Source: a virus
Virus record (IMG/VR): IMGVR_UViG_3300009593_000019
Location: 1 to 61,109 of that record
Direction: 5' to 3' (one strand)
Length of the DNA: 61,109 nucleotides
Part shown: positions 25,424-59,526 of the stretch, in pieces
Layout of the letters: each line of letters opens with the position of its first letter
How positions within the stretch are numbered: position 1 is the stretch's first letter
Notes under the pieces: model-generated
Told to the model about the DNA's origin: nothing
Databases searched by the model: none
Seen by the model: only the letters and a program-made list of their open reading frames with translations
Position numbers and translations under genes: made by a program

Positions 25424-26113
25424 ATGGTGAGAAAAGTGAAAATAAATTATGTAGAAAAAGTCCGTGTTGCAAAGATGTGGGCAAAAAGAATAATAGGTGT
25501 ATCAATGTTATTTCTTATAACATATGTAATAGGTACATTTAATCCGAACGATTACAAATTAAACAAACTATCAAAAGAGTACGAACTCAAATACCTTGAA
25601 AAGTTAAAAGAGTTAGATTTACGAGAACCTGAATTTACATATAATAATGATATGCAATTTGTTAGGGCAACTCATAAATGTATTGACTATCATAACTTCA
25701 CATTGGCAGAAGTGTTTAGAGTACCTTATGAAATGGTGACAGCACAGGCCGCTTTAGAGAGTGGTTGGGGTACGAGTAGATTTGCAAAAGAAGGTAATAA
25801 CCTTTTTGGTATTAGAGTATTCAATAAAGAATATCCTCATATGCTACCTTTATCACAAAAAGAGTGGAAAGGTTGGGGTGTAAGAATATTCGCTACGAAG
25901 TGCGATAGTGTAAAAGAATATATTAGGTTGATGAATGAACACCCAGCCTATGAGAAATTCCGTAAGTTAAGATTAAGACAACTTGCAGAAGACGGCAAAA
26001 TGGACCCAATTGAATTAGTTAAGACATTGGATAAATTTAGTACAACACCTGATTACGCAGAGCGTGTAATTGTTATTATTAAAAAAATACGAAAACTTGA
26101 GGAGAGTAAATAA
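25424..26113 (+). CDS. Glucosaminidase-family peptidoglycan hydrolase with N-terminal anchor
   Basis: A 229-residue protein with a membrane segment at about residues 19-39 (RIIGVSMLFLITYVIGTF) and a C-terminal Bax/FlgJ-like glucosaminidase (GH73-type) domain. The signature AQAALESGWGTSRFAKEGNNLFG holds the catalytic Glu. The single N-terminal helix could act as a signal anchor that lets the enzyme be exported before lysis (SAR-endolysin logic), or it may keep it in the membrane. It is one of two cell-wall enzymes in the window. Confidence 0.8.
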   Translation: MVRKVKINYVEKVRVAKMWAKRIIGVSMLFLITYVIGTFNPNDYKLNKLSKEYELKYLEKLKELDLREPEFTYNNDMQFVRATHKCIDYHNFTLAEVFRVPYEMVTAQAALESGWGTSRFAKEGNNLFGIRVFNKEYPHMLPLSQKEWKGWGVRIFATKCDSVKEYIRLMNEHPAYEKFRKLRLRQLAEDGKMDPIELVKTLDKFSTTPDYAERVIVIIKKIRKLEESK

Positions 26114-48134: not shown

Positions 48135-48941
48135 ATGACAAAATTTAGAGAACAAACCGTAATACCTCAAATAGTACATCCGAAGATAAACGGAGAAGTA
48201 TTATATCCTTTTGGACCACCTGTCTATCGTACAGAATTAGATACAAAGATTGTTGATATGCTGATAGCAGAAGGTCAACGAACAAGAGAACAAAAAGATT
48301 TAGACCATAGATTAAAACTAGCAGGTAATATGAAGTCTGGTACTTCTGTTCTATTTCCTGCAGGTCCTGATAAAGATGTTAGAAACAGAGCAGACCAAGC
48401 AATCGTTCAAAAAGTATTTGAGTTTTTTGAAATACTACAATCACAATATGGTAAAGATTGGCCTAATATAGAAAAGATGATGTTAGGTAATAGTGGTGGT
48501 ATGGGTGCATTAAGATTACAACAATTATGGATTAACTTTCAACAAGCAGGTGATTATAATCCTTTACACGACCACGGTGGTCTTTTTAGTTTTGTTATAT
48601 TTGGTGATATAGATGAAAAGATATTTACAGAAGATGTACCACCTACAAATACTAATATAGCAGGTAAACTAATATTTCATTATGGTGAACAGATTACAAA
48701 ACTACAATCAAATAGTTTTTCAGTAGAACCATATAAAGGTTTGATGTATGTTTTTCCTGCGGCTTTACAACATACGGTACCACCATACTTTAAAGAGTTT
48801 GAAAGAATTAGTATAAGTGGTAACTATGTACTAGAACAAAATCAACCACAATCAAAACTTAATCCTGTTAAGTTAAATTTAGAAGATGATAAAGTAGCAC
48901 AAATGATGATGAATCCTAATACGGACCAGAATAACATATGA
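48135..48941 (+). CDS. 2-oxoglutarate/Fe(II)-dependent oxygenase
   Basis: A 268-residue protein of the putative 2OG-Fe(II) oxygenase type common in T4-like marine phages. Iron-site candidates are His145/His147 in YNPLHDHGGLFSFVIFG and His213 in FPAALQHTVPPY, with Arg224 in FERISISGNY for 2-oxoglutarate. The substrate is unknown (protein, sugar or nucleotide). It sits between the two Fe-S genes. Confidence 0.8.
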   Translation: MTKFREQTVIPQIVHPKINGEVLYPFGPPVYRTELDTKIVDMLIAEGQRTREQKDLDHRLKLAGNMKSGTSVLFPAGPDKDVRNRADQAIVQKVFEFFEILQSQYGKDWPNIEKMMLGNSGGMGALRLQQLWINFQQAGDYNPLHDHGGLFSFVIFGDIDEKIFTEDVPPTNTNIAGKLIFHYGEQITKLQSNSFSVEPYKGLMYVFPAALQHTVPPYFKEFERISISGNYVLEQNQPQSKLNPVKLNLEDDKVAQMMMNPNTDQNNI

Positions 48942-51012: not shown

Positions 51013-51221
51013 TGGAAGGCAAATTTGTTATCAAAATTGGCAATCAACTACACACTTATACTCAATATGATGAAATTCCTAATGAGATAGGTGCGGTCAT
51101 TTCGTTTGAGCCTAAATATCCTGAAGAACCACATACAGAAGAAGAACATAATTTAATAGAAACCTTTAACGACAAATTAAAACAATTAATGGAGAGAGAA
51201 TGCCTGCGGTTACGAGGATAG
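51012..51221 (+). CDS. Small acidic protein before the PAAR gene
   Basis: A 69-residue protein starting at GTG, VEGKFVIKIGNQLHTYTQYD, with an acidic helical second half. It overlaps the preceding basic gene by one base and the PAAR gene by 22 bases. Coupling suggests a role with the spike tip; no family recognised. Confidence 0.6.
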   Translation: MEGKFVIKIGNQLHTYTQYDEIPNEIGAVISFEPKYPEEPHTEEEHNLIETFNDKLKQLMERECLRLRG

Positions 51222-51487
51222 GAGATAAAGATGTTACCCATTGTAGTACACCTGCAAGAGCAGTAGGTTCTCCAGATGTATTTTGCAATGGTATAGCTGT
51301 TAGTAGACAAGGCGATAATAACACGGTACACTTATTACCTGGTTTACCTTGCCCAGCACACGCTGCCCCTATTGCAACTGGTAGTACTACGGTCTTTATA
51401 AATGGCAAAGGTTGTGGTCGTGTAGGTGACGCAATATCGGGTTGTACAAGTGTTGCTCAAGGTTCTCCTAATGTCTTTGCCGGTTAG
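51200..51487 (+). CDS. PAAR-repeat spike-tip protein (gp5.4-like)
   Basis: A 95-residue PAAR protein. It starts PAVTRIGDKDVTHCSTPARA, with later GSPDVFCNGIAVSRQGD, CPAHAAPIATGSTTVFINGK and RVGDAISGCTSVAQGSPNVF. PAAR proteins form the sharp tip of T4 (gp5.4) and type VI spikes, binding one metal ion through His/Cys; His13, Cys14, His44 and other Cys/His are candidates. It would cap the gp5-like spike. A late promoter follows directly. Confidence 0.88.
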   Translation: MPAVTRIGDKDVTHCSTPARAVGSPDVFCNGIAVSRQGDNNTVHLLPGLPCPAHAAPIATGSTTVFINGKGCGRVGDAISGCTSVAQGSPNVFAG

Positions 51488-51931: not shown

Positions 51932-53785
51932 ATGGCAAGTACAAAACTAGATATTACAGAACTGGATTTTGACCAGATAAAACAAAATTTAAAAGTATTC
52001 TTACAAGGACAACCTGAATTTTCAGACTACAACTTTGAAGGTAGTGGTTTCGCTGTTCTATTAGACTTACTTGCTTACAATACACACTATCTAGGTTTCA
52101 ATGCTAATATGTTAGCAAACGAAATGTATTTGGATTCTGCTGATGTTAGAGCAAATGTAGTTTCACTTGCTAAGATGTTAGGTTATACACCTGCAAGTGC
52201 AAAAGCACCTGTAGCAAATATTGATGTTGTTGTCAATGACGCAACAGGAACAACTTTAACAATGAATAAAGGTACGGTGTTTACTTCTTCTATAGACGGA
52301 ACAACTTATAACTTTATCACTAATACAGATACAACAACTTCACCTGTTGATGGTGTATTTAAATTTTCTAGTATACCTGTTTACGAAGGTACACCAGTAA
52401 CCTTTAGATATACGGTTGACACACAAGACCCAGACCAAAAATATATAATACCTAGTGTAAACGCTGATACAACTACACTACAAATAAAAGTACAAAAGAG
52501 TTTAAATGACCAAACTTCTGAAACATATACAGGTGTTTCTGGATTATTAAAATTAAATAACGAAAGTCAAATATACTTCTTATCAGAAACAGATACAGGT
52601 AAATTTAAAGTTAAGTTTGGTGATGGTATTATCGGTAAGAAATTAGAACACGGTAATATCATAATTATGGATTATATCGTAACCAATAGGTCAGAAGCGA
52701 ATGGTGCTAAACTATTTAATCCTGCTGGTAATATTGGTTCGTTTTCAAATATCACGGTTACTACCGTATCAGAAGCACAAGGTGGTTCAGCACCTGAAAC
52801 AAAAGAGAGTATTCGTTTCAATGCGCCACTTCAATATACTGCACAAGATAGAGCGGTAACAACTTCTGATTATGAAACAAAAGTAATATCAATTTATCCT
52901 AACACACAATCAGTTAGTGCTTGGGGAGGTGAAGATGACGTAACACCAGTTTACGGTGTTGTAAAAATCGCAATCAAACCTACTTCAGGTTCTACACTAA
53001 CAACACAAACAAAAGCAGATATAGTTTCACAATTAAAAGAATATAATGTTGCTTCGGTAACACCTCAAATTGTGGATCCTGAAATAACAAGTATTGTTTT
53101 AAATTCAACTGCAAAGTATAATGAAAGAGCAACTACTAAAGACGCTGAAACAATTAAAGCAGATATTATTAGTACACTAGGTAGATACAATGTATCAACT
53201 TTACAAAAATTTGATAGTATGTTTAGACATTCTAAAGTTATCAAAGAGATTGATGAAACAGACGGAAGTATACTATCTAACATCACAACATTAAAAATTA
53301 GAAAATCATTTGCCCCTACATTAAATTCATCTTTGAAGTATAACATTTACTTTAGAAATGCAATTTACAATCCACATACTGGACATAATTCAGCAATGGG
53401 TGGTGTGGTTACATCTACAGGTTTCAAAGTAGCAGGTTCTACTTTTGAACAATTTTTAGATGATGATGGTAATGGAAATATAAGAGCATACTATCTATCA
53501 GGTGCAACTAGAGTTTATACTAACTCAACACAAGGTACGATTGATTATACAACTGGTGCAATTACAATTAATTCATTACAGATTACAGAAATTTCAAATA
53601 TAAGAGGGAGTGCTTCAACGGTGATAGAAGTAACCGTGCAACCTGCTTCAAACGATATTGTTCCTGTTAGAGACCAGATTTTAGAGTTAGATATTACTAA
53701 CTCAACGATTAAGGTTGAGAAGGATTCCTTTGTCGGAGGAAGCTCGGATGCTGGTGTCGGTTATACTACCACTTCTGCATATTAA
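51932..53785 (+). CDS. gp6: Baseplate wedge subunit gp6
   Basis: A 617-residue gp6/baseplate J-like protein; T4 gp6 has 660. The N-terminal LDITELDFDQIKQNLKVFLQ, FAVLLDLLAYNTHYLGFNAN and MYLDSADVRANVVSLAKMLGY blocks are diagnostic. The gp6 dimer forms the ring around the hub. Its C-terminal third is beta-rich and more variable. It abuts gp25 and precedes the next structural gene by 4 bases. Confidence 0.92.
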   Translation: MASTKLDITELDFDQIKQNLKVFLQGQPEFSDYNFEGSGFAVLLDLLAYNTHYLGFNANMLANEMYLDSADVRANVVSLAKMLGYTPASAKAPVANIDVVVNDATGTTLTMNKGTVFTSSIDGTTYNFITNTDTTTSPVDGVFKFSSIPVYEGTPVTFRYTVDTQDPDQKYIIPSVNADTTTLQIKVQKSLNDQTSETYTGVSGLLKLNNESQIYFLSETDTGKFKVKFGDGIIGKKLEHGNIIIMDYIVTNRSEANGAKLFNPAGNIGSFSNITVTTVSEAQGGSAPETKESIRFNAPLQYTAQDRAVTTSDYETKVISIYPNTQSVSAWGGEDDVTPVYGVVKIAIKPTSGSTLTTQTKADIVSQLKEYNVASVTPQIVDPEITSIVLNSTAKYNERATTKDAETIKADIISTLGRYNVSTLQKFDSMFRHSKVIKEIDETDGSILSNITTLKIRKSFAPTLNSSLKYNIYFRNAIYNPHTGHNSAMGGVVTSTGFKVAGSTFEQFLDDDGNGNIRAYYLSGATRVYTNSTQGTIDYTTGAITINSLQITEISNIRGSASTVIEVTVQPASNDIVPVRDQILELDITNSTIKVEKDSFVGGSSDAGVGYTTTSAY

Positions 53786-53789
53786 TTAG

Positions 53790-56354
53790 ATGAAGTTTAA
53801 TAAGAAGATTACAAACCTTCTGCAAGGTCAGTTACCTGAATTTGCATTAGAACAGCATCCTAAATTTTTAGAGTTTGTCAAAACTTATTTCCAGTTAATG
53901 GAATCTGCTGAACTGCAAATTACTTCTTCACAATCTACAGATGGTATCTTACTAGAAACAGAAACAGGTCAATCTAATAATTTAATATTAGACGCAAGTA
54001 GACTTGGTTCAGAAGCAACTCAAATAGACGCCGGTTCTAAAATCTTACAAGAGACTTCTTCTTTTGGTAAGTTTACAACTGGTGAAACAATTAAAGGCGA
54101 AACATCAAACGCAACTGCTGTTATATTAGCAGAAGATTTAGTTAACAATAGATTATTCATTACAGCAGAAGATAAATTTATAGAAGGTGAAACGGTTACA
54201 GGTATTTCTTCTCAAGCGTCTGGTGTATCAGGAACTTATAGACCTAATCCTGTAAAAACAATACAAGACTTATTATCATTTAGAGATCCAGATAAAGTTA
54301 TCTCACACTTCTTATCTCAATTTAGAAATGAAGTATTAAATACAATACCTGAAAATTTAACAGACAATCTAAACAAAAGAGAATTAATTAAAAGAGTTAA
54401 ATCTTTGTATCGTACTAAAGGTACTGCAAAAGGACACGAATTATTTTTTAGATTATTATTTGGTATCTCTTCTGAAACATTTTATCCTAAAGAACAAATG
54501 CTTAGAGTATCAGATGGTGAGTTTACTTCAAACACAATATTAAGATGTATTAATTCAGTCGGTGATACTGGTAAATTAATTGGAAGAAAAGTTGAAGGTA
54601 TTACTTCTGGTGCAACTGCGATTGTAGAAAACATATCTCGTTTTCAGATTTCAAGTGAAGTTGTATCTGAATTTTTATTAAACCAAGAAAGTATTGTAGG
54701 TACATTCCAAGTAGGTGAAACTATTAGAGGTACTGAAACTGATACAGACGACTTGTATATTAAAACAACTATCACAGGTATACCTGGACAATTTACAATT
54801 ACAAATGATGGTTCTCTATTTGAAGAATCTGACATTGTAGATTTAATAGGTGGTGGTGCTGGTGCAAATTGTCAAGTTGCTGAAATAGGTGCTGGACAAA
54901 TTACAGATTTTTATATAAATGCTTCTGGTACACAATATCAAATAGGCGACAAACTAGTTTTCAATAATGCAAATACAAATGGTGCCGGTGCAATAGCAGA
55001 AGTTGCTGTTGTTAATGGTGCAATTGCAGGAGAAACTGGAAGTGGTTACGACCATATTATATTTGAAGACGCAACAAGTAAGAATGATATTAACCCAGGC
55101 AGTAAAATGGTTTTAGAATCTGGTCTAGGTGATATTACAGATATAAGATTAATTAAAGGTGGTTCTGGTTATACTAAAATACCTACGGTTACAATTACTT
55201 CTGATAATGGTTTGTCTGCTGAGATTTACGCATACGGAAAAGATATTGGAAAACTTCTAGGTATCAATACGGTTGAACCTGGTTTCAAACACGATTTAAG
55301 TCCATCTCCACCAACGGTTAAATTACCACAATCAATTATTATATTACTATCTTCAGGTAATTATGCTGTAGGAGAAACGGTTACTGGTGGAACTTCAGGT
55401 AGTACAGGTGTTGTATTATCTTGGGACGCAACAAGAGGTCTATTAAGATTAAAAGATGTTAGTGGTGCATTTATAGGACACGAAGTTATGACTGGTGGTC
55501 TTTCTTCGGTAACTGGTCTAATGGCAAAAACAGATTTAGCAACTGCAACGGTTAATGTTGTAGGTACTTCAACAAGTGAAGGTAAATATATTTCAGAAGA
55601 TGGTCACTTATCAGAAACAACTATGAAGATACAAGATAGTTTATACTATCAGGACTTTTCTTATGTTATTAAAGTAGGTCGTACTATTGATGAATGGAGA
55701 GACGCATTTAAAAAGACAATGCACCCTGCTGGTTTCTACTTTACTGCACAAGTAAATATTGAAAGTAGACTTAATGCGAAAAATAGAATGCCTGTTATTG
55801 GTAGGGTTACTGGTATTGAGGCAAGTCCATTTATTTCAGTATTGAATACATTGTTTGGTACAATCTTTGGAAGAAGACTAGGTACAATAGATGATGGTAC
55901 TACATTAAGAGGTACTGGTTCTAACGATAGACAATTAGGTTTACCTGCTGATGTTGTACAATCTGCTCTTTCACCTTTTGCAACTAACACAAGAGACTTA
56001 ACTCTACATAGAACAAAAATAAGTTTCACATTTCAATTTAAACCGTTTTATAATTTTAGAACGGTTAATACAAACTTTGGGTCAGTATATGCAGGACCAA
56101 GATTAAGAAGTTTCAATAAATACTTTCAACAATCAATGTCTGCTTCTGCAATGAATTGGGCAAGAGTAGCAGAATTAAAGGCAATAGGTACAAATACTAA
56201 TGCTGATGGTACAGACTTGCAATATGGTGATTTAACTACTATTGCAAAGACATATATTACATATCCTGCTACGGTTTTAGTGCCTCAAGGTAGATTTAGT
56301 AATACACAGAAAAAATTTAGTAGCGGAACAGCGAGATTTGACTCAACTGCTTAA
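53790..56354 (+). CDS. Large virion protein, probable baseplate wedge component
   Basis: An 854-residue protein. It opens FNKKITNLLQGQLPEFALEQ, HPKFLEFVKTYFQLME, and has a helical part (LYRTKGTAKGHELFFRLLFG) followed by many beta modules with a GETVTG-like turn (FTTGETIKGETSNATA; FIEGETVTGISSQAS; YAVGETVTGGTSGSTG). Its place between gp6 and gp8 equals that of T4 gp7 (1032 residues), but no sequence similarity to gp7 is evident, so only a wedge or peripheral role is inferred. Confidence 0.7.
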   Translation: MKFNKKITNLLQGQLPEFALEQHPKFLEFVKTYFQLMESAELQITSSQSTDGILLETETGQSNNLILDASRLGSEATQIDAGSKILQETSSFGKFTTGETIKGETSNATAVILAEDLVNNRLFITAEDKFIEGETVTGISSQASGVSGTYRPNPVKTIQDLLSFRDPDKVISHFLSQFRNEVLNTIPENLTDNLNKRELIKRVKSLYRTKGTAKGHELFFRLLFGISSETFYPKEQMLRVSDGEFTSNTILRCINSVGDTGKLIGRKVEGITSGATAIVENISRFQISSEVVSEFLLNQESIVGTFQVGETIRGTETDTDDLYIKTTITGIPGQFTITNDGSLFEESDIVDLIGGGAGANCQVAEIGAGQITDFYINASGTQYQIGDKLVFNNANTNGAGAIAEVAVVNGAIAGETGSGYDHIIFEDATSKNDINPGSKMVLESGLGDITDIRLIKGGSGYTKIPTVTITSDNGLSAEIYAYGKDIGKLLGINTVEPGFKHDLSPSPPTVKLPQSIIILLSSGNYAVGETVTGGTSGSTGVVLSWDATRGLLRLKDVSGAFIGHEVMTGGLSSVTGLMAKTDLATATVNVVGTSTSEGKYISEDGHLSETTMKIQDSLYYQDFSYVIKVGRTIDEWRDAFKKTMHPAGFYFTAQVNIESRLNAKNRMPVIGRVTGIEASPFISVLNTLFGTIFGRRLGTIDDGTTLRGTGSNDRQLGLPADVVQSALSPFATNTRDLTLHRTKISFTFQFKPFYNFRTVNTNFGSVYAGPRLRSFNKYFQQSMSASAMNWARVAELKAIGTNTNADGTDLQYGDLTTIAKTYITYPATVLVPQGRFSNTQKKFSSGTARFDSTA

Positions 56355-56390: not shown

Positions 56391-58013
56391 ATGGCAAAAC
56401 AAAGTATAGGATTAGGAACCACAGCGAATGACGGCACAGGTGATAACCTGCGTGTAGGTGGTGATAAGGTCAACGATAATTTTGATGAAATTTACACGGC
56501 CTTAGGCGACGGTTCGTCATTACAGATAACAACTAGTGGTGCTTCTTCTAACCAAGTACTTCAATGGAATACTTCTAATAATAGATTTGAACCAACTGCT
56601 TCTGCGGCTGCAGGAGATATATCCGTAGACACAACTCCACAACTTGGTGGTGATTTAGATGTTAACGGAAACAATATTATATCACAAGGAAATGCTGATA
56701 TTAATATTATACCTAATGGTACTGGTAGAGTTAAATTTGGTTCTTTAAGATTTCCTACAGGTGCTGGTACTTCAACATATGTACTTGCAACTGACGGTGC
56801 TGCCGATATGTACTGGAAACAAGTAGGTTCTGTAATTAACTTATCTGCTGATAGTGGAACAAACGACCAATATACGGTAGGTGATGTTCTTAACTTTACT
56901 GGTGGTACAGGATTAACTTCAACGGTTTTAGATGACACAATTAAATTTGATATAGATTCAAATGTCGTAACCTTAGCAGATAACCAAACTCTTTCAAACA
57001 AAACAATAGACAATCCTGTTTTTACAGGAACTTCTTCTGGTAATGTTCAAATTAGAGCTGCAACTCTTGGTTCTTATATTGCACAAGGTGGAACTGCTCT
57101 TGCAGGATTTGAAAATGCAACAACTTATGCTGGTGCGTTTGCTGTTGATACAACAACTTATAAATCTTACTATGCCGCTAACGGTGTATGGAATGAACTT
57201 GTATCTTCTGCTTCATCTATAGATGTATTATCAGATGTAGACACAACTACACAAGCACCTACAAGTGGTCAAGCATTAATATGGAATGCCGGTTCAAGTC
57301 AATGGAGACCTACGACATTATCTGTACCTGTATCTGCTGATAGTGCGCCAAGTTTAGGTGGTAATTTAGATACTGCCGGTTATACAATTCAAGGAACTGG
57401 TAAAATAAGTTTAAGTGGTTCTGGTTCTGTTGTTAAATCAGATTTCGTTAACACAGCGTCATTACCTAACGCAACAAATAGTGTTGGTGCCTTTGCGGTA
57501 ACAACAAATAATAATCTTGCTCTTTTTGCAACCTCTTCAGGTTGGATAGGATTACTATCTGAAAATGATGGTATCAATTCGTTTACAGATGTAGACACAA
57601 CAACTAATCCTCCGTCTTATGGACAAGTATTAGTATATGAGAATGTTGCAGGTGTAGGAAGATGGAGACCTAATGATTATACTCCTGCTACTAGAGTATC
57701 AGCACAATTTACGGTAACTGCAAATGGTTCAACTGATTTTGTATTTAATGGTGATGGTTTTCCATCAGCACAAAATGACCCAGTTTTATACTTAAAGAAA
57801 GGTCTTACATATCAATTCGTAATGAACCAAGGTGGTTCACATCCTTTTGAAATTAGAACTGCGTCAGGTGGTTCTGCATATTCTTTCGGAGTAACCAATA
57901 ACGGTGCTTCTTCAGGAACACTAACATTTACGGTACCAATGAATGCTCCGTCAACATTGTATTATCAATGTACTTCACATAGTGGTATGGGAGCAGTAAT
58001 TAATATAGATTAA
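56391..58013 (+). CDS. Fibre-like virion protein with C-terminal cupredoxin-like domain
   Basis: A 540-residue protein. The N-terminal LGTTANDGTGDNLRVGGDKV and NDNFDEIYTALGDG are typical of phage fibre/baseplate attachment regions. Repeated VDTTTQAPTSGQALIWN-like modules follow (near 65, 280 and 400). The last 100 residues look like a plastocyanin/amicyanin fold: His484 (GGSHPFEIRT) and C-x2-H-x2-M at Cys527, His530, Met533 (YYQCTSHSGMGAV) form a type 1 copper site pattern. Metal binding is inferred. It is under its own late promoter. Confidence 0.75.
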   Translation: MAKQSIGLGTTANDGTGDNLRVGGDKVNDNFDEIYTALGDGSSLQITTSGASSNQVLQWNTSNNRFEPTASAAAGDISVDTTPQLGGDLDVNGNNIISQGNADINIIPNGTGRVKFGSLRFPTGAGTSTYVLATDGAADMYWKQVGSVINLSADSGTNDQYTVGDVLNFTGGTGLTSTVLDDTIKFDIDSNVVTLADNQTLSNKTIDNPVFTGTSSGNVQIRAATLGSYIAQGGTALAGFENATTYAGAFAVDTTTYKSYYAANGVWNELVSSASSIDVLSDVDTTTQAPTSGQALIWNAGSSQWRPTTLSVPVSADSAPSLGGNLDTAGYTIQGTGKISLSGSGSVVKSDFVNTASLPNATNSVGAFAVTTNNNLALFATSSGWIGLLSENDGINSFTDVDTTTNPPSYGQVLVYENVAGVGRWRPNDYTPATRVSAQFTVTANGSTDFVFNGDGFPSAQNDPVLYLKKGLTYQFVMNQGGSHPFEIRTASGGSAYSFGVTNNGASSGTLTFTVPMNAPSTLYYQCTSHSGMGAVINID

Positions 58014-58065: not shown

Positions 58066-59526
58066 ATGCCAGCAATTATAACAAACAAATTTAGAAGAAA
58101 TAACGCTCAGCAATTTGAAGAATCTTTTGGTGAAGCGTCTCCTAATATCTATTATCTAGGTATAGGAAAACCTTCTGCGTTTGGTACTAAAACTAGACCA
58201 GATGGTAGAACAGAAAATATTGGAACAGATAGTGCTCCAGTAACCCCAGCGGATTCAGTACAAGATGAGTATGATACTTTTGATGATTTACTTGCCGCTA
58301 AAAGAATTACAAGCTCAGATGTAAGTTTCGCTTGTCCTAGAATTAACTGGACAACAAATACAACTTATGATATTTACAGACACGACTATGGAAACAGAAT
58401 TACTGGTTCCACTAATTTACAAAGTGCTCATAGTGGTGCAACTAATTTATATGATTCAAATTTCTATGTTTTAAATTCCAACTTCAATGTTTATAAGTGT
58501 TTAGATAACGATAATAACACACCTTCAACGGTTGAACCTACTGGCGAGTCAACTTTGATTTTAGAAACTGCTGATGGATACAAATGGAAATATATGTACA
58601 CTATGTCTGCTGCTCAACAAGCAAACTTCTTGTCAACAGACTTTATGGGAGTTTCAACTAACTCAACGGTTACAAACAACGCAACAGACGGTGATGTTAA
58701 TATAATCAAAATTAAAACTGCTGGTACAGGTGGTACTGCTGGAACTTATACAAACATTCCTTTAAGAGGAGATGGTTCTGGTGGAACTTGTACGGTTACG
58801 GTTTCAAGTGGTTCGGTTACTTCTGTTATCGCAACAGGAACACCATCAGGATATACTTTTGCAAATGTAAGAGTAGCAGATATTAATGCTGCCGGTGCTG
58901 GTGCTTTAACTGGTGCTGAACTAGATTGTATTATTGAACCAAAAGGTGGTCACGGTTTTGACCCATTTGAAGAATTAGGTGCTTTCTTTGTGATACTTAA
59001 TACTTCTTTTGAAGGTGCTGAAACTGCAAACTCTGGTGACTTTACAACTGCAAACGATTTTAGAAGAGTTGCATTGATTAGGGATCCTAAATCTGCTGGT
59101 TCGGCTGCAACGACAGCAACATTAAGAGCAACTAAAGCTGTTAGATTAAATTCAGGTGCTGGTACTTTTCAATCAGACGAAGTAATTACTCAAACAAACA
59201 CAGGTGCTGTTGGTAAAGTAGTAGAATTTGATACTGCAAACAATATCTTATTTTACACGCAAACAAGATATAATGACGAAGGTGTTGACGCAAGTGGAGA
59301 CGGAACTTTATTTAGTGGTACAAATGTAATCACAGGTTCAACTTCTAGTGCAACTGGAACACCTACAGGTAATACTGAAACGGTTAACAATGTTTCTTTA
59401 GTTTCTGGTTATTCAACTTCTGAAATTGACGCTGACTCTGGCGATGTAATGTACATTGAGAACAGAGCACCTGTTAATAGAAGTGCTGACCAAACGGAGA
59501 ATGTTAAGTTAATCATAGAATTTTAA
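58066..59526 (+). CDS. gp8: Baseplate wedge subunit gp8
   Basis: A 486-residue protein; T4 gp8 has 334. The N-terminal ITNKFRRNNAQQFEESFGEA, then NIYYLGIGKPSAFG, VSFACPRINWTTNTTYDIYR and YVLNSNFNVYKCLDNDN with DGYKWKYMYTMSAA match the order of T4 gp8 blocks. An inserted beta region with G-rich turns (about 230-400) explains the larger size. gp8 connects gp6, gp7 and gp10 in the wedge. Confidence 0.88.
   Translation: MPAIITNKFRRNNAQQFEESFGEASPNIYYLGIGKPSAFGTKTRPDGRTENIGTDSAPVTPADSVQDEYDTFDDLLAAKRITSSDVSFACPRINWTTNTTYDIYRHDYGNRITGSTNLQSAHSGATNLYDSNFYVLNSNFNVYKCLDNDNNTPSTVEPTGESTLILETADGYKWKYMYTMSAAQQANFLSTDFMGVSTNSTVTNNATDGDVNIIKIKTAGTGGTAGTYTNIPLRGDGSGGTCTVTVSSGSVTSVIATGTPSGYTFANVRVADINAAGAGALTGAELDCIIEPKGGHGFDPFEELGAFFVILNTSFEGAETANSGDFTTANDFRRVALIRDPKSAGSAATTATLRATKAVRLNSGAGTFQSDEVITQTNTGAVGKVVEFDTANNILFYTQTRYNDEGVDASGDGTLFSGTNVITGSTSSATGTPTGNTETVNNVSLVSGYSTSEIDADSGDVMYIENRAPVNRSADQTENVKLIIEF

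Follow-up and report, generated by a model that had tools for sequence, protein, structure and literature searches.

A predicted copper-binding cupredoxin domain at the C-terminus of a baseplate adaptor in marine T4-like phages

Residues 434-540 of a 540-aa tail protein encoded in the window (that is, the whole stretch of DNA analysed: 61,109 nucleotides, positions 1 to 61,109 of IMG/VR record IMGVR_UViG_3300009593_000019) were identified, by a fold model together with structure and profile matches, as a true, divergent cupredoxin, in which a complete type 1-like copper site is predicted from His484, Cys527, His530 and the axial Met533. The protein is best read as a baseplate adaptor whose copper-binding cupredoxin head would be stabilised by the metal and would serve attachment or fibre docking (rough probability 0.6). 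The domain very probably binds copper, and the chances that its role lies in attachment or stability are about even. Cupredoxins and gp9/gp10 adaptors are each known already, and their combination is new in the literature found: the open-licence literature, covered mostly as titles and abstracts, yielded no description of a cupredoxin in a phage tail or virion. Automatic domain databases may already flag the cupredoxin fold here.

The carrier protein and its genomic setting

The coordinates of the carrier gene, its parts and its neighbours are listed in Table 1; codon 434 begins at position 57690, where the cupredoxin domain starts. The Pfam family T4_gp9_10_N (PF07880) matched residues 3-93 (E=4.8e-10; 40.2 bits, with a cut-off of 25), for which T4 gp10 was the best solved relative (2fl8/5hx2; E=2e-8), while T4 gp9 was matched at E=0.002. 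Within this part, M1, G9, G17, L20, N28, N30, Y35, G39 and G41 were invariant among 49 homologues. The carrier is a full-length member of PHROG_677, ‘baseplate wedge tail fiber protein connector' (E=5e-86), and that profile takes in the C-terminal cupredoxin domain too, although the family is labelled as a tail protein only, with neither a copper nor a cupredoxin label. NCBIfam gave no match. The sequence-only reading had called the carrier a fibre-type virion protein; gp9/gp10-like baseplate wedge/tail-fibre adaptor is the better name. The N-terminus presumably anchors the adaptor to the baseplate wedge, as in T4, whose gp10 and gp9 have in common with the carrier both the N-terminal motif and the gp6/gp7/gp8 gene order. 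We know of no cupredoxin domain in T4 gp9 or gp10.

Table 1. Positions in the window of the carrier gene, its predicted parts and the adjoining tail genes
Feature	Position	Strand	Description and basis
gp6-like baseplate wedge (baseplate J)	51932..53785	+	upstream; PHROG_219, E=6.5e-187
854-aa virion structural protein	53790..56354	+	directly upstream; PHROG structural families; syntenic with Mosig_00105
Carrier ORF	56391..58013	+	540 aa; gp9/gp10-like baseplate wedge/tail-fibre adaptor with C-terminal cupredoxin domain
N-terminal T4 gp9/gp10-like part	56397..56669	+	residues 3-93; presumed anchor on baseplate wedge
Beta-rich shaft module, copy 1	57123..57317	+	residues ~245-309; strand pattern and motif; moderate model confidence
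Beta-rich shaft module, copy 2	57480..57680	+	residues ~364-430; strand pattern and motif; moderate model confidence
Cupredoxin domain	57690..58010	+	residues 434-540; fold model, Foldseek, phmmer and profile matches
His484 codon, predicted N-terminal ligand	57840..57842	+	loop before fifth strand; H in 112/115
Cys527 codon, predicted thiolate ligand	57969..57971	+	end of penultimate strand; C in 116/116 aligned
His530 codon, predicted C-terminal His ligand	57978..57980	+	C-x2-H-x2-M loop; H in 116/116 aligned
Met533 codon, predicted axial ligand	57987..57989	+	directly before last strand; M in 116/116 aligned
gp8-like baseplate wedge	58066..59526	+	downstream; PHROG_438, E=4.7e-144; syntenic Mosig gene annotated gp8

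Between the two ends of the protein, the full-length model showed two like strand patterns, at residues 250-309 and 368-428, which correspond to the shaft modules, and a ‘DVDTTT.(A/P)P..GQ.L' motif is repeated in the sequence of both. As a whole, the full-length monomer model was poor (pTM 0.30), which is expected because the protein is presumed to be a trimer; its last 100 residues were nonetheless of high confidence, and the fold search described below was not based on this model.

The carrier gene sits between gp6/gp7-like and gp8-like wedge genes, and Pelagibacter phage Mosig has the same gene order, with a tail-fibre gene of its own at the corresponding place. Judged by protein identity, Mosig is the nearest isolate of the window phage: the gp6-like protein is 62.5% identical to its Mosig counterpart and the ribonucleotide reductase 78.4%. 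Since both proteins are closest to Mosig, a SAR11-type bacterium is the likely, not proven, host.

Several other genes of the window were observed alongside. A Cys/His-rich PAAR-motif spike-tip protein (51200-51487, + strand; Pfam E=4.5e-10) is another likely metal-binding tail part, and a putative 2OG-Fe(II) oxygenase (48135-48941, + strand; PF13759, E=2.9e-12) lies among the tail genes. A glucosaminidase-domain protein (25424-26113, + strand; Pfam E=7e-19) is a possible cell-wall-degrading enzyme.

Fold and predicted copper site

The domain was modelled with AlphaFold2 from 63 relatives (pLDDT 95.8; pTM 0.88), with eight strands, in keeping with the Greek-key beta sandwich of cupredoxins. 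Nearly every top-ranked Foldseek match in PDB was a cupredoxin or a copper enzyme of cupredoxin fold, with copper nitrite reductase, rusticyanin, plastocyanin, pseudoazurin, amicyanin and multicopper oxidases among them; the best was the cupredoxin domain of the three-domain copper nitrite reductase of Hyphomicrobium (2dv6/6tfo; E=7e-5), which, unlike the phage domain, belongs to an enzyme with further copper sites. TM-scores to solved cupredoxins were modest (0.45-0.59 over the query), so the domain is a divergent cupredoxin. On the sequence side, phmmer with the domain alone gave Prochlorothrix plastocyanin 1b3i as the best single-sequence match in PDB (E=5e-5), with the His, the Cys and the second His of the domain in register. 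The cupredoxin-like C-terminal domain proposed from the letters alone is thus borne out by model, structure search and sequence search.

A broad profile of 23 members, searched against PDB, ranked copper nitrite reductase first (4.7e-5), followed by amicyanin mutants (2.6e-4), amicyanin 1aac (1.1e-3) and plastocyanins; it was built from ligand-keeping representatives, and its invariance was not counted as evidence. The tight profile of 63 members was less powerful (1b3i at E=0.007). Pfam Copper-bind (PF00127) scored the domain at 12.6-15.1 bits (E from 0.03 to 0.19), below the curated cut-off of 21.2 bits, and matched weakly in 32 of the 63 relatives (best 5e-5). The commonest weak Pfam match was PF25489 (plant, At5g54830-like), found in 40 of the 63 members (best 7e-4) and so outnumbering Copper-bind. 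Structural neighbours of the domain in BFVD were phage tail fibres (TM up to 0.95), none of them named as a copper protein. Weaker neighbours were beta-sandwich proteins of giant viruses, relatives of Marseillevirus and Pithovirus (BFVD A0A481YWX9, A0A481Z6J5 and others; TM from 0.62 to 0.75).

All four putative ligands lie where the sequence-only reading had placed them, with the C-x2-H-x2-M spacing that it gave. Cys527, the sole Cys of the 540-aa protein, is the last residue of strand 89-94 of the domain model, and His530 lies in the loop that follows; in this predicted structure, the ligands have the order of a type 1 site, and their loops are placed among the strands as in such sites. The proposed likeness to an amicyanin-type copper site also gained ground: the C-x2-H-x2-M loop is common to amicyanin (1aac) and the domain, the broad-profile match extends over ~80 residues, and the last strand and the ligand loop align, with Cys, His and Met falling on the amicyanin ligands. 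The two differ in that amicyanin is a secreted electron carrier of methylamine dehydrogenase, whereas the domain is fused to a tail adaptor and has His-Pro at the first ligand, and the TM-score between them is only 0.46-0.55. Multicopper oxidases also carry His-Pro at the first ligand.

Conservation and distribution of the domain

All four ligands were invariant in the 63 close relatives. One search pattern behind these relatives had included Cys527 and His530, and because of this seed bias loci were re-fetched with no domain pattern, by way of the gp8-like gene that lies downstream and of the protein's N-terminal part; the four ligands were then found in 50 of 54 distinct domains. When all sources were pooled, 131 of 137 distinct domains kept the four, 133 of 137 had the C-x2-H-x2-M loop of amicyanin length, and the residue after the first His was Pro in 129 of 132. 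The alignment was also thinned to 29 representatives of <60% identity (median 33%); its four most conserved columns were those of the ligands, that of His484 being the most conserved and the other three tying with a few other columns at 26/29. Poor conservation among homologues had been named in advance as an outcome that would speak against the proposed site; what was found, across the 29 diverse representatives and the 137 domains, is retention.

The exceptions were few and informative. His484 is replaced by Asn in one lineage (loci L107, L108 and L110), a second domain copy in locus L188 is without the Cys, His and Met ligands, and a bacterial copy in an Opitutia MAG (L256; residues 1076-1178 of a 1821-aa ORF) has lost all four together; in the copy of phage S-CAM1 (L244), the alignment is not traceable beyond its His. 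The losses in L256, L188 and the L107/L108/L110 lineage indicate that the fold tolerates them, and thus that retention is not a constraint of the fold. Retention elsewhere looks selected on the alignments, pointing to selection for metal binding.

The domain was detected in 341 of 50,697 phage records (E<=1e-3), nearly all of them marine Synechococcus or Prochlorococcus phages, along with a small number of Pelagibacter phage records. In the surveyed set of ORFs, it was C-terminal in 88 of the 95 gp9/10-type ORFs that bear it, while 35 of 130 gp9/10-type ORFs were without it; its usual terminal place and its absence from the latter suggest an exchangeable head module. In marine T4-like phages (Kyanoviridae), both tail fibres and baseplate adaptors bear this exchangeable module, most often as their C-terminal part. 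Other settings include the interior of long tail fibres and proteins with peptidase S8-like parts, and in P-SSM2 the domain adjoins collagen-like repeats. In the nearest relatives of the window phage (L257 and L258), a 1370-aa ORF contains another copy, divergent and with the four ligands intact; the counterpart of this region falls past the end of the window. Beyond phages, exported Flavobacterium proteins (L248, L249 and L250) combine several CHRD domains with a C-terminal cupredoxin module, and in other Bacteroidetes the domain ends collagen-like proteins.

Possible roles of the domain

The favoured explanation, a metal-stabilised head module, would work as follows. The N-terminus would hold the adaptor on the baseplate wedge, where by homology with T4 (the source of the figure) ~18 copies per virion would ring the baseplate, with the C-terminal cupredoxin head exposed on the virion. 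Free copper is all but absent from the bacterial cytoplasm, so the metal would probably be bound after lysis, being acquired in the lysate or in seawater. The metal would then pin the two ligand loops together and stabilise the head, which would serve attachment to the host surface or the docking of additional fibres; that it also transfers electrons is less likely. That the domain would act as a head is suggested by its C-terminal place in 88 of 95 ORFs, its absence from 35 of 130, and its position on collagen-like stalks in P-SSM2 and Bacteroidetes. Counting against the explanation as a whole are the TM-scores of only 0.45-0.59, the Copper-bind scores below cut-off, the Pro after His484 in place of the Asn of plastocyanin and PetE, and the assembly of virions in a copper-poor cytoplasm.

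Should the domain bind copper, the particles of many marine T4-like phages would be metalloproteins whose defined site could be seen by spectroscopy, and ocean copper might gain a link to phage attachment. A more far-reaching idea is that blue type 1 copper forms a ring on marine T4-like baseplates, loaded from seawater or lysate, with the copper state tuning adsorption or contraction. We consider this conceivable yet doubtful; were it true, virions would count as copper proteins, and together they would form a pool of copper binders in the ocean that has so far gone uncounted.

Among the alternatives to a metal-stabilised head, a redox-active blue copper site survives best, though it is unlikely. 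Such a site would exchange electrons with components of the host surface, or handle superoxide at the cell surface. The full Cys/His/His/Met set is that of electron-transfer cupredoxins, and the axial Met, kept in 116/116 aligned domains, exceeds what simple metal binding needs. Yet no gene for a redox partner was seen nearby, the baseplate adaptors and tail fibres that bear the domain offer no electron path, and the same module stands on collagen-like stalks of heterotrophic Bacteroidetes.

Another idea is that only the fold has been reused: the domain would be an adhesin derived from a cupredoxin, its four residues being relics or structural. The copies in L256, L188 and L107/L108/L110 still look folded with some or all ligands missing, as this idea would have it; however, the ligands are the top conserved columns while the remaining identity is ~33%, and the conserved Cys, in most cases without a second one in the domain, leaves no role in a structural disulphide. 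Mere reuse of the fold is therefore improbable, and the earlier argument that the retained ligands speak against it is reinforced, as 131 of 137 domains keep all four and the losses show the tolerance of the fold.

Somewhat less probable again is a Trojan-horse bait, in which virion copper would be recognised by a copper or metallophore receptor of the host: to our knowledge, phages of SAR11 or marine Synechococcus have not been shown to use any copper receptor, and deeply buried type 1 sites grip copper tightly. An iron version has nonetheless been proposed for marine phages, with iron-binding HxH sites in T4 gp37 and marine phage tail fibres (PMC11705849). Those fibres and the domain are alike in placing metal in a marine phage tail, copper here being predicted; they differ in that, in the HxH sites, paired histidines of a trimeric fibre coordinate octahedral iron, whereas a type 1 copper site within a single domain is predicted here. 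Metals in phage tails, hitherto argued from iron-binding His pairs, would, if copper is bound, become testable on a small soluble domain.

Recent capture of the metabolic gene petE and its fusion to a tail gene was rejected as very improbable: domain and plastocyanins, phage PetE included, share the cupredoxin fold and superfamily, and profiles of the domain and phage PetE match (E from 0.0006 to 0.002), but this similarity is far below that among PetE proteins, the ligand loop is C-x2-H-x2-M and not C-x2-H-x4-M, the first ligand is followed by Pro and not by the Asn of phage PetE, and a true petE stands elsewhere in five cyanophage genomes that bear the module. Phage PetE, as read from its sequences, also has a signal peptide and is a separate gene, whereas the domain is part of a tail protein and not a stand-alone soluble electron carrier. 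The two may be confused in annotation: in Synechococcus phage S-SCSM2R, a 168-aa ‘PetE' (L082:3797-4303; XQU50115.1) is a cupredoxin module behind a tail-like N-terminus, and the genuine petE is found at 79-321 of that record. Some phage ‘PetE' annotations may thus denote tail proteins, not photosynthesis genes.
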